From Caldilineaceae bacterium (GTDB taxonomy: Bacteria > Chloroflexota > Anaerolineae > Caldilineales > Caldilineaceae), in assembly GCA_015494005.1 (NCBI GenBank), contig WGCB01000146.1, forward strand, positions 1-11,251: a stretch of 11,251 bases of DNA, read 5' to 3'. Below the pieces are notes generated by a model. It searched no databases, was not told where the DNA came from, and was given only the letters and a program-made list of their open reading frames with translations. Position numbers and translations under genes: made by a program. Shown in pieces: positions 2,423 to 6,991 of the stretch (its first letter is position 1; each line of letters begins with the position of its first letter).

Positions 2423-3016
2423 CTAGGCTCGAGCCAGGCCGCCCGTGCTGCGGTGCAGGAAGCGGGTCCACAGTCCCAGGATCAGCAGGCAGAGGAGCAG
2501 GTACCCGGCAACGGCCAGCAGGGTCGATGGCGCTTTGAAGAGGCCGATCGCCAGCTGCCAGGTCGTGCTCCCGAAGGCCACGAGAGCGGCCCACAGATCC
2601 GTCACGAACAGGAAGAGGTGGGGCACCCAGGGCACGAACTGGTAGGCCAGGACGCTCAGGAGCACCCCGATGCCCAGGATGCTGGCGGCCCACACGCCGA
2701 TGGTCAGGAAACCCAGCCCCAGGGCCAGCCAGAGATTGCGTCGCCGCTCCTGGCGGGCCAGGCGAGCCTCCAGCCGGACGGCGAAGTCCGCGGGCGGCTC
2801 CATCAGCGGCGGATCCTGGAAGCGGCTGTCCACGGCCTGCCAGAGCTGCCACTGCCGGGCGCAGGGCGGGCACTGGGCCAGGTGCTGCTCGAACTGCTCC
2901 TGCTCTCCTGGATCCAGCATGTGATCCAAGGCCAGGGACATCAGCAGGCCCATCCGCTCGTGCTCCGGCAGGGGAGCGGCCGGCAGGTTGGGGTTGGGGT
3001 GTTGAGTGTGGGTCAT
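2423..3016 (-). CDS. Membrane-anchored zinc-finger anti-sigma factor (197 aa)
   Basis: The N-terminal cytoplasmic part carries the HxxxCxxC signature of zinc-binding anti-sigma domains (His45, Cys49, Cys52), within an EQHLAQCPPCARQW motif. The preceding helix contains the usual 'D-x-x-L-D-P-x-E' type segment. A charged linker (70-93) leads to a hydrophobic C-terminal half with about three or four membrane segments (95-128, 131-160, 164-184). That is more than the single helix of RsiW or RseA. Its ATG overlaps the stop of the sigma-factor gene as ATGA, so the two are probably translationally coupled and made in matched amounts. By family it should bind and hold the ECF sigma factor at the membrane until a signal releases it. 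The signal is not evident from sequence. Confidence 0.9.
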   Translation of the reverse strand: MTHTQHPNPNLPAAPLPEHERMGLLMSLALDHMLDPGEQEQFEQHLAQCPPCARQWQLWQAVDSRFQDPPLMEPPADFAVRLEARLARQERRRNLWLALGLGFLTIGVWAASILGIGVLLSVLAYQFVPWVPHLFLFVTDLWAALVAFGSTTWQLAIGLFKAPSTLLAVAGYLLLCLLILGLWTRFLHRSTGGLARA

Positions 3017-3693
3017 GAGGTTGCCTCGCTCAAACCTTGGGAAAAATCTGGGCCGACCATGTGCAGGACGGAGCGCTTGGATCGGGCCGGCGCTTTGGGC
3101 GGCTGGCTGGTGGCCCGGCCTGCCGAGTCGCTCCGCTGGGACGACGCCTGGGACTGCTGGTAGATCTCCGCCAGTTTCTGCCGGGCTCGGAAGAGTCGGC
3201 TCTTCACTGCCGCCAGGCTCAGCCCCATGGCCGTGGCGATCTCCTGGTAGCTGTACTCATACCAGTAGCGCAGGATCAAGGGAGTGCGGTACTCCGGCTC
3301 CAGCCGGTCCAGCAGGCGCTGGAGCTCATCCGCCTCCTCCCGCTGCAGCAGGCTCTGCTCCGGCCGGGGATCTTTGCCCTCCAGCACGTAGGCCAGGGGG
3401 GAGTCGTCGATGGACTGGGTGATCACCCGCCGTTTTCGCAGGCGGTCAATGCAGTGGTGGTTGGCGATGGAGAAGAGCCAGGTGCTGAACTTGTGCTCCG
3501 GGTTGTACTGGCGCAGGCGGGCATAGGCGCGCAGGAAGGTCTCCTGGGCCGCGTCCTCGGCCTCCTCCCGGTTGCCCAGCATGCGATAGGTGAGGTTGAA
3601 GACCGGCCGCTGATAGGCCTCCACCAGGCGGCTGAACGCCTGTCGATCCCCCGCCCGGGCCGCGCTGAGCCACTCTTGCTCCGGATTGCTCAT
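3013..3693 (-). CDS. ECF-type RNA polymerase sigma factor (226 aa)
   Basis: Sigma-70 region 2 spans about residues 12-88 and includes the core-binding and promoter-melting segment (AEDAAQETFLRAY, then FSTWLFSIANHHCIDRLRKRR). Sigma region 4 spans about 122-178 and includes the helix-turn-helix YSYQEIATAMGLSLAAVKSRL. There is no region 1 or 3, as expected for an ECF factor. The ATG at 3693 is chosen because it begins just before the conserved region; the open frame continues 29 residues further upstream (to 3780) without family support. A polar tail of about 45 residues (181-226, rich in Ser, Gln, Ala, Arg) extends beyond region 4. The gene is the first of an operon with its anti-sigma factor (4-nt ATGA overlap) and a bactofilin-like protein. 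A TGAAAC/CGTA motif 45-71 bases upstream suggests autoregulation. Confidence 0.93.
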   Translation of the reverse strand: MSNPEQEWLSAARAGDRQAFSRLVEAYQRPVFNLTYRMLGNREEAEDAAQETFLRAYARLRQYNPEHKFSTWLFSIANHHCIDRLRKRRVITQSIDDSPLAYVLEGKDPRPEQSLLQREEADELQRLLDRLEPEYRTPLILRYWYEYSYQEIATAMGLSLAAVKSRLFRARQKLAEIYQQSQASSQRSDSAGRATSQPPKAPARSKRSVLHMVGPDFSQGLSEATS

Positions 3694-3737
3694 GGTCTCT
3701 CTCTTCACGGGCTGTGCTTGTTTTCTCAATTGTGCAC

Positions 3738-3764
3738 TACGTGGGCCGAAAAGGAAAAGTTTCA
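3738..3764 (-). promoter_or_regulatory. Sigma-W-like ECF promoter in front of the sigma-factor gene
   Basis: On the minus strand TGAAAC (3764-3759) and CGTA (3741-3738) are separated by 17 bases. The Bacillus subtilis sigma-W consensus is TGAAAC with CGTA about 16 bases later. The predicted start is near 3731, giving a leader of about 37 nt before the ATG at 3693. Position and match to an ECF consensus support positive autoregulation, but this is a single motif found by eye. Confidence 0.5.
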
Positions 3765-3794
3765 GCCTGGCCGCACCCATCGCTTCCTGGCAGT

Positions 3795-3966: not shown

Positions 3967-5097
3967 ATGCGACTCACCTATCCTTTCACAGCCATTGTCG
4001 GACAGGAGCGAATGAAGCGCGCCCTGTTGCTCAACGCGGTCCATCCCCTCATCGGTGGGGTGCTCATCCGCGGGGAGCGGGGCACGGCCAAGTCCACCGC
4101 GGCCCGGGCCCTGGCCGCCCTCCTGCCGGATATCGAAGCGGTGGAGGGATGCCCCTTCAGCTGCCACCCGGACCGCCCGGCCGGGCTCTGCGCCACCTGC
4201 CAGCGACAGCCCGAGGCCAACGGATCCCTGCCCACGGTCTTCCGTCCCACCCCCTTCGTGGATCTGCCGGTGAGCGCCACCGAGGACCGGGTGGTGGGCA
4301 CCCTGGACATCGAGAAGGCCATCCGCAAGGGCGAGCGCCACTTCGAGCCGGGCATCCTGGCCGCCGCCAACCGGGGCGTGCTCTACGTGGACGAGGTGAA
4401 CCTGCTGGACGACCATGTGGTGGACCTGCTCCTGGACAGCGCGGCCATGGGGGTCAACGTGGTGGAGCGGGAAGGGATCAGCGTGCAACACCCGGCCCGT
4501 TTCGTCCTGGTGGGCTCCATGAACCCGGAGGAGGGGGACCTGCGGCCCCAGCTCCTGGACCGCTTCGCCCATGCCGTGGATGTGGTGGGCATCACCGAGC
4601 CCCGGGAGCGGGTGGAGATCCTGCGCCGGCGCATGGCCTTCGAACAGAATCCCCAGCAGTTCTACGAGGAGTGGGCCGATGCGGAGCAGGAGATGGGCCG
4701 GCGCATCATCGCCGCCCGCCGGGCCTACGAGGACGTGACCTACACCCAGAAGGACCTCTACACCATCGCCGCCCTCACCGCCAGCTTCAACGTGGACGGC
4801 CACCGGGCGGACATCGTCATCCTGAAGACAGCCCGGGCCCAGGCCGCCTTCGACGGCCGGGACCACATCACCGACCGGGACATCCTCCTGGCCGCGGAGC
4901 TGGCCCTGCCCCATCGTATGAAGAAGCAGCCCTTCCAGGAGGCGGTGCTCCAGCCGGATCAGCTGGACGCCAGCATGCGCCAGGCCCGAGCCGAGGCGGA
5001 ACAGGCCTACACCGACGAGGACGTGGCCCAGGAGGCCCAGGCTGGCAGCACCCAGGTGGATGAAAAAAAAGCCCCGAGGGCGATGACTCAGAAGTAG
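3967..5097 (+). CDS. chlD: Chelatase AAA+ part: ChlI-like zero-frame product of a chlD-type gene (376 aa)
   Basis: This is the AAA+ ATPase part of a magnesium/cobalt chelatase subunit. Such subunits use ATP to drive metal insertion by the large ChlH/CobN subunit. Visible motifs are the family start YPFTAIVGQ (5-13), Walker A GERGTAKST (36-44), four cysteines (62, 66, 75, 78), Walker B LYVDEVNLL (139-147), sensor 1 and arginine-finger region GSMNPEEGDLRPQLLDRF (183-200), and a helical lid to about 325. Walker motifs are intact, as in ChlI, rather than degenerate as in many BchD proteins. The ATG at 3967 has AGAGGG ten bases upstream and fits the family start; an in-frame ATG at 3838 is possible. 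The frame ends with eight private codons after an A8 run (5063-5070). The -1 frame continues into the linker and vWA domain. Without a shift the gene yields a ChlI-sized protein. Confidence 0.92.
   Translation: MRLTYPFTAIVGQERMKRALLLNAVHPLIGGVLIRGERGTAKSTAARALAALLPDIEAVEGCPFSCHPDRPAGLCATCQRQPEANGSLPTVFRPTPFVDLPVSATEDRVVGTLDIEKAIRKGERHFEPGILAAANRGVLYVDEVNLLDDHVVDLLLDSAAMGVNVVEREGISVQHPARFVLVGSMNPEEGDLRPQLLDRFAHAVDVVGITEPRERVEILRRRMAFEQNPQQFYEEWADAEQEMGRRIIAARRAYEDVTYTQKDLYTIAALTASFNVDGHRADIVILKTARAQAAFDGRDHITDRDILLAAELALPHRMKKQPFQEAVLQPDQLDASMRQARAEAEQAYTDEDVAQEAQAGSTQVDEKKAPRAMTQK
5063..5070 (+). promoter_or_regulatory. A8 slippery site for -1 frameshifting between the AAA+ and vWA frames
   Basis: The zero frame reads GAT GAA AAA AAA GCC. 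Slipping back one base on A-AAA-AAA gives AAA AAA AGC CCC GAG, which enters the open vWA frame. Alternatively, RNA polymerase slippage to nine (or six) A residues gives the same result. In the -1 frame a TGA at 5061-5063 closes the frame just upstream, so the open stretch begins exactly at the A run. All eight lysines encoded earlier in the gene are AAG, so two adjacent AAA codons stand out. AGGTGG (5054-5059) lies a few bases upstream and could act as an internal anti-SD contact. A missing base in the assembly would look the same. Confidence 0.7.
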
Positions 5098-6035
5098 ACT
5101 CCTCGCCGGAGTCGGGGGAGGGCGGCCTGTCCGAGCCGGACGCCTCCCCCCAGCAGAGCTCATCGCCCGGGGACGACAAAGGGGCCCGCAAGCCCGTCAA
5201 CGTGGGGGATGTCTTCGAGACCAAGCGGCTGGACACCCCCCTGGACAAAATGACCCGGGAGAAGTCGGGCAAGCGCTCCTACAGCCGCACGGAGCGCAAG
5301 CGGGGGCGCTACATCAAGGCCCGCCCAGCCCGGGACAAGACCACGGACATCGCCTTCGACGCCACCTTCCGGGCTGCCGCGCCCTACCAGCTCCAGCGCC
5401 AGGACGACGAAGGGGAGACGGCCCTGAAGCTGCGCATGAGCGACCTGCAGCGCAAGGTGCGGGTGCGCCGCACGGGCAATCTCATCCTCTTCGTGGTGGA
5501 TGCCAGCTGGTCCATGGCCGCGGCGGAGCGCATGGAGGCCACCAAAGGGGCCATCTTCAGCCTGCTGGTGGACGCCTACCAGCGCCGGGACCAGGTGGGG
5601 ATGATCGTCTTCCAGCGGGACAAGGCCCGGGTGGTGCTGCCCCCCACCGGCAGCGTGGACCTGGCCCAGAAGGCCCTGAAGGATCTGCCCGTGGGCGGCA
5701 AAACCCCTCTGAGCCATGGCCTCTACACCGCCTGGCAGGTCCTGGAGAACGCCCGCCGCCGGGATCCGGAGACCCGGGCCATGCTGATCCTCCTCACCGA
5801 CGGGGCCGGCAACGTGAGCATGACCGGCATGCCCGCCCAGGAGGAGGCCATGCGCATGGCCTCCCTCTTCGCCCAATCCCAGGTCCGCTCCATCGTCATC
5901 AACATGGAGCACGCGGCCTTCGACCGGGGGTTGGCCCAGGCCCTGGCCGATGCTATGGGCGGGGTCTGCTACAACCTGCCGGACCTGCGGGCCGACACCC
6001 TGCTCCGCACCGTGAAACGGGAACTGGGTTCGTGA
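5070..6035 (+). CDS. chlD: Chelatase linker and vWA part, reached by -1 frameshift (completes a 689-aa ChlD-like subunit)
   Basis: Fused to the AAA+ part through a -1 shift at the A8 run, this gives a 689-aa protein: 368 residues from frame zero, then 321 from here. That is a normal size for ChlD/BchD. The first 45 or so codons encode the acidic Ser/Pro/Glu/Asp linker typical of D subunits. After a basic segment (KRSYSRTERKRGRY) comes a von Willebrand A domain with a complete MIDAS: DASWS (fused residues 512-516), the Thr of GGKTPL (580) and Asp of LLTDG (612). The vWA domain should bind Mg2+ and dock on the large subunit. No credible independent start exists. The first usable codon, GTG at 5202, lies after the linker and lacks a ribosome binding site. 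The stop overlaps the next gene's GTG as GTGA. Confidence 0.88.
   Translation, partial: SPEGDDSEVDSSPESGEGGLSEPDASPQQSSSPGDDKGARKPVNVGDVFETKRLDTPLDKMTREKSGKRSYSRTERKRGRYIKARPARDKTTDIAFDATFRAAAPYQLQRQDDEGETALKLRMSDLQRKVRVRRTGNLILFVVDASWSMAAAERMEATKGAIFSLLVDAYQRRDQVGMIVFQRDKARVVLPPTGSVDLAQKALKDLPVGGKTPLSHGLYTAWQVLENARRRDPETRAMLILLTDGAGNVSMTGMPAQEEAMRMASLFAQSQVRSIVINMEHAAFDRGLAQALADAMGGVCYNLPDLRADTLLRTVKRELGS
5072..5117 (+). other. Candidate RNA structure downstream of the slippery site
   Basis: GACTCC (5097-5102) and GGAGTC (5108-5113) form a perfect 6-bp stem with a 5-nt loop, spanning the zero-frame stop codon region. CCCC (5072-5075) can pair with GGGG (5114-5117) to enclose it; the alternative longer pairing CCCCGA/TCGGGG (5072-5077 with 5112-5117) competes for two bases. 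A stem following a slippery run is the usual stimulator. However, the small stem starts 26 nt after the run and the outer one only 1 nt after it, neither being the typical 5-9 nt. Folding was done by eye. Confidence 0.4.
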
Positions 6036-6991
6036 CCCGCCGTCAACTCCTGGCCGACCTGTCCCTGCTCCTGGTGGTCTTCGTCTGGGGAGCCACCTTC
6101 GTCATGGTCCAGGACGCGGTGCGGGTCTGGCCGGTCTTCGCCTTCCTCTCCCTGCGCTTCGGCATCGCGGCCCTGGCTTTCCTGCCCCTGCTCTGGTGGA
6201 AACGGCGGGGGCACGCCGCCTCCCCCGAGGATCCAAGGGATCGCCCCCGGTTTCGCCCCAGCCGGCGCATCGTCCTGGCCGGCGTGGTCATCGGGCTGGT
6301 CCTGGCCGCGGGCTACGCCTTCCAGACCTTCGGCCTGCGCTACACCACCCCGGCCAAGGCCGGCTTCATCACCGGGACCAGCGTGGTCATGGTGCCCATC
6401 GGGGCGGCCTTCTTCCTGCGCCAGCCGGTGGAGGCCCCGGCCATCCTGGGGGTGATCCTGGCCACCGTGGGCCTGGCCCTCCTCAGCCTGAACCAGGACC
6501 TGTCCGTGGGCTTTGGGGACCTGCTGGTCCTCTTCTGCGCCGTCTCCTTCGCGGTCCACATCCTGCTGGTGGGCCGCTACGCCCCCCGGGTTTCCGCCAC
6601 CTGGCTGGCTGCCCTCCAGGTGACCACGGTGGCTGTGGCCACCTTCGGGCTGGCCCTGCTGACGGAGCTGCCCCAGGGCATCCCGCCCTTGACGGGCAGC
6701 GTCCTCTTCGCTGCGGCGTTCACCGGCCTGCTGGCCACCACCATGGCCTTTACCTTCCAGGCCTCGGCCCAGCGCTTCACCTCCGCCACCCACACTGCCC
6801 TCATCTTCAGCCTGGAGCCGGTCTTCGCCGCCCTGGCCAGCTACGTCCTCATCGGCGAGCAGCTCACCGGACGGGTCCTCTGGGGCTGCGCGCTGATCCT
6901 GGCGGGCATGCTCTCCGCAGAGTTCGGCTCCGTGCTGCTGGCCGTTTGGCGGCGGCGTCGCCTGCGGGACAACCTGCGCCGGGCCACGTGA
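6032..6991 (+). CDS. EamA/DMT-superfamily permease (319 aa)
   Basis: The protein is almost wholly hydrophobic, with about ten membrane helices arranged as two EamA repeats. The first begins LLLVVFVWGATFVMVQDAV (12-30), the standard EamA start. The second repeat ends with the hallmark TALIFSLEPVFAALASYVLIGEQLTGR segment (about 251-280). A charged loop (57-82) follows helix 2 and the C-terminus is basic (WRRRRLRDNLRR), consistent with a cytoplasmic end. The GTG start at 6032 overlaps the chelatase stop (GTGA), so the two genes are probably translationally coupled. Members of this superfamily export or import amino acids, metabolites and cofactors, and the substrate cannot be told from sequence. 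Coupling to a chelatase makes a cofactor- or metal-linked substrate worth considering, but no more. The gene converges with the leftward gene, with only 20 bp between the stops and no hairpin. Confidence 0.9.
   Translation: MTRRQLLADLSLLLVVFVWGATFVMVQDAVRVWPVFAFLSLRFGIAALAFLPLLWWKRRGHAASPEDPRDRPRFRPSRRIVLAGVVIGLVLAAGYAFQTFGLRYTTPAKAGFITGTSVVMVPIGAAFFLRQPVEAPAILGVILATVGLALLSLNQDLSVGFGDLLVLFCAVSFAVHILLVGRYAPRVSATWLAALQVTTVAVATFGLALLTELPQGIPPLTGSVLFAAAFTGLLATTMAFTFQASAQRFTSATHTALIFSLEPVFAALASYVLIGEQLTGRVLWGCALILAGMLSAEFGSVLLAVWRRRRLRDNLRRAT

Follow-up and report, generated by a model that had tools for sequence, protein, structure and literature searches.

The window, i.e. the whole stretch of 11,251 nucleotides that was analysed, carries a chlD-type gene laid out in two reading frames (Table 1). 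The zero frame starts with the ATG at 3967 and, at a run of eight A residues (A8), reads GAT GAA AAA AAA GCC CCG AGG GCG ATG ACT CAG AAG TAG, with the stop codon eight codons past the second AAA of the run. The -1 frame is shut on the upstream side by a TGA at 5061-5063 and is open from 5064 to the TGA at 6033-6035, and read-through into it would give a product of 689 aa. An earlier note, made from the letters of this DNA, had described the two frames in the same way, and our codon-by-codon reading agrees with it. The 689-aa product contains GERGTAKST and DEVN in its zero-frame part, which we take to be the Walker A motif and the Walker B region, and DASWS and TDG in its -1-frame part, which presumably are MIDAS-type motifs. 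The two halves match consecutive parts of the NCBIfam profile TIGR02442 (putative cobaltochelatase) and hence jointly correspond to one ChlD-type protein. The score of the 376-aa ORF with TIGR02030 was 445.5 bits, which is under the cut-off of 466.95.

Table 1. Features of the chlD locus and its neighbours in the window
Feature	Position	Strand	Basis or remark
ECF sigma factor gene, divergent, adjoins chlD	3013..3780	-	neighbour, outside the mechanism
Zero-frame ORF, AAA+ (ChlI-like), 376 aa	3967..5097	+	ORF reading; TIGR02442 positions 1-357
A8 run	5063..5070	+	slippery heptamer A_AAA_AAA (zero frame) at 5064-5070
-1 frame, acidic linker and vWA domain	5064..6035	+	TIGR02442 positions 353-640
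Stem 5' arm, GGGCGATGA	5078..5086	+	proposed stimulatory; begins 7 nt past the run; comparative
Zero-frame TAG stop, end of the short product	5095..5097	+	
Stem 3' arm, TCATCGCCC	5160..5168	+	comparative; about 75 nt beyond the 5' arm
EamA transporter gene	6032..6991	+	neighbour; its GTG overlaps the chlD stop codon

All eight lysine codons ahead of the run are AAG, as the earlier note had counted correctly, and the -1 frame past the run has 12 AAG and 5 AAA. The hexamer AAAAAA matches the window at four positions, three of them within the A8 run, against an expectation of 0.28, and four matches were reached by 2 of 200 shuffles of the window. The acidic linker has no start codon of its own, which is another point on which that note was right: no ATG, GTG or TTG occurs in the -1 frame until the GTG at 5202, downstream of the linker.

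Following a search of 60 relatives, we analysed the junction between the two halves in other genomes. The sequence GAA AAA AAA G, the same -1 split and the short zero-frame tail are found in all 41 Caldilineaceae loci, which comprise 34 loci from whole genomes (30/30 and 4/4) and 7 further named, distinct ones. Of the 37 Caldilineaceae genomes, 33 supplied the whole-genome loci; a strong match to the chlD-type gene was absent from the other four (G010, G017, G023 and G030). None of the 41 loci is a plain in-frame chlD without the run, the case that would have told against the earlier note. This conservation supports its core reading, in which one gene yields a short AAA+ and, by slipping into the -1 frame on the A run, a long AAA+/vWA product. 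For comparison, runs of seven or more A residues elsewhere in the AAA and vWA halves number 15 in 276,582 nt (156 chlD loci).

The folding energy downstream of the run dips in the Caldilineaceae genes and in neither the other split nor the in-frame genes, and this led us to search for a stem. Bases 8-16 past the run are near-invariant in the Caldilineaceae loci; in eight relatives (L021, L023, L024, L025, L027, L029, L032 and L038) the zero frame ends ahead of them. RNAalifold applied to 30 sequences paired GG(C/T)GATG with CATC(G/A)CC about 75 nt further on, in 7 pairs. Over 38 distinct sequences, 97.1% of the cells of the 9-bp stem are paired, as compared with 21-54% in slid controls. The percentage paired, the number of double-change cells (20 versus 6.8) and the covariation score all exceeded those of all 500 shuffles. 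The other two of our five covariation measures failed to beat the shuffles, because most stem pairs scarcely vary: the number of stem pairs with a double change was matched or exceeded in 183 and the number of further pair types in 500 of the 500. Both members of the informative pair are third letters of -1-frame codons (GGC/GGT and TCG/TCA); the pair is C-G in 19 sequences, U-A in 17 and something else in 2, and it has changed 4 times on the tree. The two deviating sequences are those of L006 and L007, in which the distal 3' arm has been lost and the same 5' arm can pair with a stretch ending 38 nt past the run; in L006, the bases of this alternative pairing are changed on both sides.

The stem was also tested locus by locus, using the longest run per locus and a stem start 4-12 nt past it. 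The window's own stem gave p values of 0.045 versus other positions of its own gene and 0.06 versus codon-preserving shuffles, so the case for the stem rests on the family comparison. A distance of about 75 nt to the 3' arm is long for a bacterial stimulator. Nevertheless, a covarying stem at frameshift spacing points to ribosomal -1 frameshifting and is a line of support for the -1 shift that the earlier note had missed. Two other candidate stimulators were dropped. A local hairpin in the first 70 nt past the run was given up as the 70-nt fold of the window was no better than its shuffles (z +1.1); the 100-nt fold, which includes the distal arm, had a z of -2.8. A Shine-Dalgarno-like AGGTGG directly before the run was rejected after the upstream sequences of 30 loci showed no common motif by eye.

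We then classified the chlD loci of the class (156 loci) and of the phylum Chloroflexota (233 distinct loci). They were picked from the best-scoring rows and not at random (for the class, 100 of the rows listed; for the phylum, 40 rows chosen by hand), and the phylum set excludes L227 and L276, which have no AAA part, and loci whose vWA DNA is identical to that of a locus kept. The tree contains 232 of the 233 loci, one split locus with a short AAA part having been left out. On it, 164 loci are split and have a run, 46 are in-frame and have a run of A7 to A10, 18 are in-frame without a run, 1 is split without a run and 3 have the opposite frame sign. As individual cases, L055 is a split chlD without a run and L166 has an A8 run with the opposite frame sign. 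In the class set, the split loci have A_AAA_AAA in the zero frame in 121 of 122 cases and the in-frame loci in 29 of 33.

In-frame chlD genes do exist in other families, yet 46 of the 64 retain the run, and in all 46 a -1 stop follows within 10 codons. In the class set, such a close stop is found in 29 of 29 in-frame run genes, as compared with 21% of the codon positions of the same genes. An in-frame run with a close -1 stop would amount to the form known from the E. coli dnaX gene, with the long product made by default and the short one by a -1 shift. All 16 loci that we fetched from one family outside the class (f64) are of this kind. The chlD of L318, very probably Chloroflexus aurantiacus J-10-fl, reads GAA GTA AAA AAA AAC CCT GAC, and its -1 reading past the run is K-P-stop. 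The gene of L316, presumably from C. aggregans, has A_AAA_AAG and the -1 reading K-A-stop.

According to parsimony, the run-bearing genes have switched between the split and the in-frame form at least 14 times. The number was 14-17 over 20 bootstrap trees and 39-46 with shuffled labels (all 21 trees); it is approximate, since the FastTree phylogenies used contain several long branches and give less than 80% support to 65 of 229 inner branches. Some switches fall within a genus. In g90, L136 (in-frame, A10) and L133 (split, A9) are 79.9% identical. In g18, the genes of L053 (in-frame, A10) and L170 (split, A9) are 94.3% identical and have near-identical flanks and one A of difference. This last contrast could be a one-base error in one of the two assemblies; the in-frame clades in which several genomes have the same run are hard to explain in this way.

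The length of the run, its codon phase and the stem are related. With the longest run per locus considered, all 26 A7 runs are in phase 2 and all but one of the 46 A8 runs in phase 1, the exception giving A_AAA_AAG, and A9 runs are spread over all three phases. Short runs therefore keep the phase needed by a ribosomal heptamer. The stem beats other positions of its own gene (p<0.05) in 41/41 Caldilineaceae loci, 17/31 other loci with A7 or A8 and 4/138 loci with A9 or longer, i.e. in 58/72 short and 4/138 long runs. Tested versus codon-preserving shuffles, the figures are 37/41, 20/31 and 4/138, so that a significant stem is missing in 14 (or, by the latter test, 11) of the 31 short-run loci outside the Caldilineaceae. 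Corrected for kinship, the association of stem and short run is thinner: among 9 independent pairs, an average of 4.5 had the stem on the side of the short run and 0.1 had it on the opposite side (median p 0.125). Chelatase cassettes placed in E. coli are described as shifting in 10% (A7), 40% (A9) and 63% (A11) of cases (PMC3711429), in agreement with short runs alone needing help.

Hence, the most likely explanation for the window gene is that it is decoded in two ways. Some ribosomes would stay in the zero frame and halt at the TAG, which would give the 376-aa product, a ChlI-type (small-subunit) AAA+ protein. Others would slip back by one base on the heptamer, presumably with their efficiency raised by the 9-bp long-range stem downstream, and continue in the -1 frame to give the 689-aa AAA+/vWA protein of the ChlD type. 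The same ATPase domain would be present in both proteins, which presumably form a joint assembly. That stem-aided ribosomal -1 slippage on the A8 run produces both of them is, in our judgement, very probable. Selection seems to keep the pair of outputs, and elsewhere in the phylum the same type of run seems to serve genes that make the long product by default.

The two proteins could also come from two mRNAs, if RNA polymerase added one A, or omitted two, on the A8 run. Eight is the length from which such slippage is considered, homopolymers of this length or longer serve it in other genes (PMC3711429), and the Thermus dnaX gene has A9 (PMC5009743, PMC3711429), as far as the parts of these papers cited here go. 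The relatives with A9 or longer fit such a mechanism, which calls for a homopolymer of at least nine and for neither a phase nor a stem: as given above, they have next to no significant stems. Furthermore, slippage in both directions would require a close stop in the +1 frame as well, and such a stop comes within 6 codons in 116 of the 138, as against 20% of the positions in the AAA half; among the short-run loci outside the Caldilineaceae it does so in 14 of 31. This contrast is merely suggestive, as the Caldilineaceae A8 genes close the +1 frame as well, in 41 of 41 loci, and in the window the closeness of the +1 stop is not independent evidence, because the stop codon, a TGA, belongs to the stem arm. 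The window and its Caldilineaceae relatives have, on the contrary, a run of eight in a single codon phase in 41 of 41 loci and a stem that covaries at frameshift spacing. Consequently, we consider polymerase slippage unlikely for this gene.

Two further explanations do without a programmed slip altogether. Homopolymer runs are error-prone and the window's own genome is fragmented (820 contigs), so the split could have been an artefact of sequencing or assembly, or else a frameshift might recently have inactivated a normal chlD. With the run, frame and tail alike in 41 of 41 distinct loci from many assemblies, sequencing error is excluded as the cause, and with coding open on both sides of the junction this explanation is practically refuted. 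Alternatively, translation of the vWA half might start on its own, through internal or coupled initiation; two Caldilineaceae genomes (L061 and L062) contain a second chlD paralogue with an overlapping ATGAGTGA that looks like a coupled restart. In the window, however, the first possible start lies past the linker, the run, the phase of the heptamer and the stem would be left unexplained, and 46 run-bearing relatives have the long form in one frame. Separate initiation is thus very improbable, and ribosomal slippage on the A8 run is the reading that we retain below.

As to function, programmed frameshifting in chlD was reportedly proposed by Antonov in 2020 to supply both the small and the medium subunit of cobalt chelatase. 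The earlier note had cited this proposal, which is consistent with the passages on chlD in papers of 2013, 2016 and 2022 (PMC3711429, PMC5009743, PMC9227772). The window's own genome, which is 88% complete, fits it in part. A single chlD-type locus is present and a separate chlI is absent, the only other AAA matches being two weak ones (29-30% identity), and the genome does contain a CobN-type fragment of 705 aa at a contig edge. The fragment scored 347.5 bits with TIGR02257 versus 184.5 with BchH, both under the full-length cut-offs, as a fragment should. As regards the corrin-ring methyltransferases of the B12 pathway, the four PF00590 matches of this genome are CbiE, uroporphyrinogen methyltransferase and two of other families; cobI, cobJ and cobM had no match.

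Across the relatives, the chlD-type gene did not regularly go together with CobN. The vWA half is present in at least 240 of 248 class genomes, of which a count by eye among the matches listed puts at least 232 at an E-value of 1e-67 or lower, and PF02514 (CobN/ChlH) is above the cut-off in 36 of the 248. Eight of 19 Caldilineaceae genomes have PF02514, and the other 11 lack it and all have the A8 gene. Three genomes with PF02514 (G013, G078 and G138) have a second chlD paralogue beside the PF02514 gene on the same contig. In five Caldilineaceae genomes with PF02514 (G008, G028, G031, G035 and G036), there is no second strong ChlI/ChlD match among the matches listed; the A8 gene is the sole candidate partner there, which favours a chelatase role in these genomes. 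Cobalt insertion may hence hold for some members, but it fails to explain the spread of the gene, and a cobalt-chelatase role as a general rule is doubtful. Chloroflexi frameshifted chlD genes without a CobN/ChlH large subunit have been described before, and their function is called unclear in that passage (PMC9227772).

The presence of a separate ChlI-like gene goes to some extent with the absence of the run. In other classes, 11 of 14 run-less in-frame chlD genes are accompanied by a ChlI-like gene on their own contig, no more than about 4 kb away. The four run-less in-frame genes of the Anaerolineae have no ChlI-like neighbour and no strong ChlI-like match elsewhere, which makes 7 of 18 run-less genes (these 4 and 3 others) without a nearby one. 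In the run-bearing genomes examined, no second strong match lies within 5 kb of the run gene among the matches listed, strongest first, as expected if the run replaces the second gene.

Frameshifted chlD has been published before (Antonov 2013; Kuznetsov 2022), and the window gene is a confirmed member: it too has the AAA+ half in the zero frame, the vWA half in the -1 frame and an A-rich slippery site. Chloroflexi cases, among them Herpetosiphon, Brevefilum and Anaerolinea, are named in the parts of these papers cited here (PMC3711429, PMC9227772). RNA structures downstream receive a general mention (PMC9227772), and the structure-forming sequence of other chelatase genes is called not strongly conserved in the relevant section of a 2016 review (PMC5009743). 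The family of the window differs in its fixed A8 and its conserved, covarying long-range stem, so the signal is better defined here than in the published descriptions consulted, and the mirror-image relatives were unexpected. The in-frame protein of Chloroflexus aggregans was interpreted in 2013 as a fusion (PMC3711429, in the part cited), whereas the in-frame relatives found here retain the run with a close -1 stop. Separate ChlI and ChlD (BchI and BchD) genes give two protein kinds alike, but need two genes and have no slippery run. Bacterial dnaX is likewise a single gene with two products (tau/gamma), its slippery site being A_AAA_AAG or A9. As described in the sections cited here, its short product results from the shift in E. 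coli and its long one in 17 genes of 12 genera, e.g. Chlorobium (PMC3711429), and the mechanism is ribosomal in some species and transcriptional in others (PMC3711429, PMC5009743). It is an unrelated protein, however, and in chlD a single phylum accounts, by parsimony, for at least 14 changes of polarity, some of them inside the genera g18 and g90. Neither the mirror form nor the covarying stem nor the trade-off between stem and run length was found in the open-licence literature searched.

These observations can be joined in a single reading, which we put forward tentatively, its chances being a little below even. Only the pair of outputs would be conserved, and minor alterations of the run or of the sequence flanking it would have flipped the default at least 14 times. 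A7 and A8 runs would act on the ribosome together with a stem, and runs of A9 or longer would act without a stem, by the run alone and probably in part through polymerase slippage. In-frame chlD genes of the Chloroflexus type would be hidden frameshift genes, and the main role of the products would be something other than cobalt insertion, as most carriers are without CobN/ChlH. If this is true, selection acts on the possession of both products and not on the choice of default. The phylum would then provide a natural series of genes (A7 and A8, each combined with a stem, then A9 and A10, in both polarities and in some cases within a genus), in which the trade-off between run length and RNA structure and the changeover from ribosomal to transcriptional slippage could be measured. 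Genes annotated as plain in-frame chlD would become testable as hidden dual-output genes, and the general assignment of the AAA+/vWA pair to cobalt chelation would be weakened.

As for the neighbours of the window gene, a relative of the ECF sigma factor is close to chlD in 25, and a relative of the EamA transporter in 10, of the 108 loci searched.

Two genomes of the window's own family, G005 and G013, carry a second chlD paralogue (loci L061 and L062) that has no A run. In this paralogue, the frames of the AAA and vWA halves overlap at ATGAGTGA, with CAGGAGG upstream, and the overlap looks like a coupled restart rather than a site of frameshifting. The G013 copy adjoins cobN. A separate clade without the A run is formed by the chlD loci L055, L129 and L134 of genomes G060, G061 and G090, all of one family; two of these genes are in-frame and one is split between frames. 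No separate chlI was seen in the three genomes among the matches listed in our searches for ChlI/ChlD relatives.

The chlD gene at L166 (genome G267) differs from the remaining long-A-run loci in that its vWA half is read in the +1 frame and its A8 has phase 0. This change of sign may reflect either a one-base error or another kind of shift.

Elsewhere in the Anaerolineae genomes there is an additional AAA gene (L197-L205), which shares about 40% identity with the ChlI part and occurs both in genomes whose chlD is split and in genomes whose chlD is in-frame.

In the window's genome, the CobN-type protein has a 2Fe-2S ferredoxin-like region N-terminal to its CobN part, as suggested by a weak match to NF041613 (E 7e-4). 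As for the genes next to chlD, matches to the ECF sigma factor were found near chlD at 25 of the 108 loci searched, and matches to the zinc-finger anti-sigma-like gene at 16 of the 108.

Coordinates of genes adjoining chlD and of the CobN-type gene (locus L066)
Feature	Location	Strand	Remark
Divergent ECF sigma factor and zinc-finger anti-sigma-like gene	window 2423-3780		adjoining chlD
CobN-type gene	L066 3-2117	-	cut by contig end
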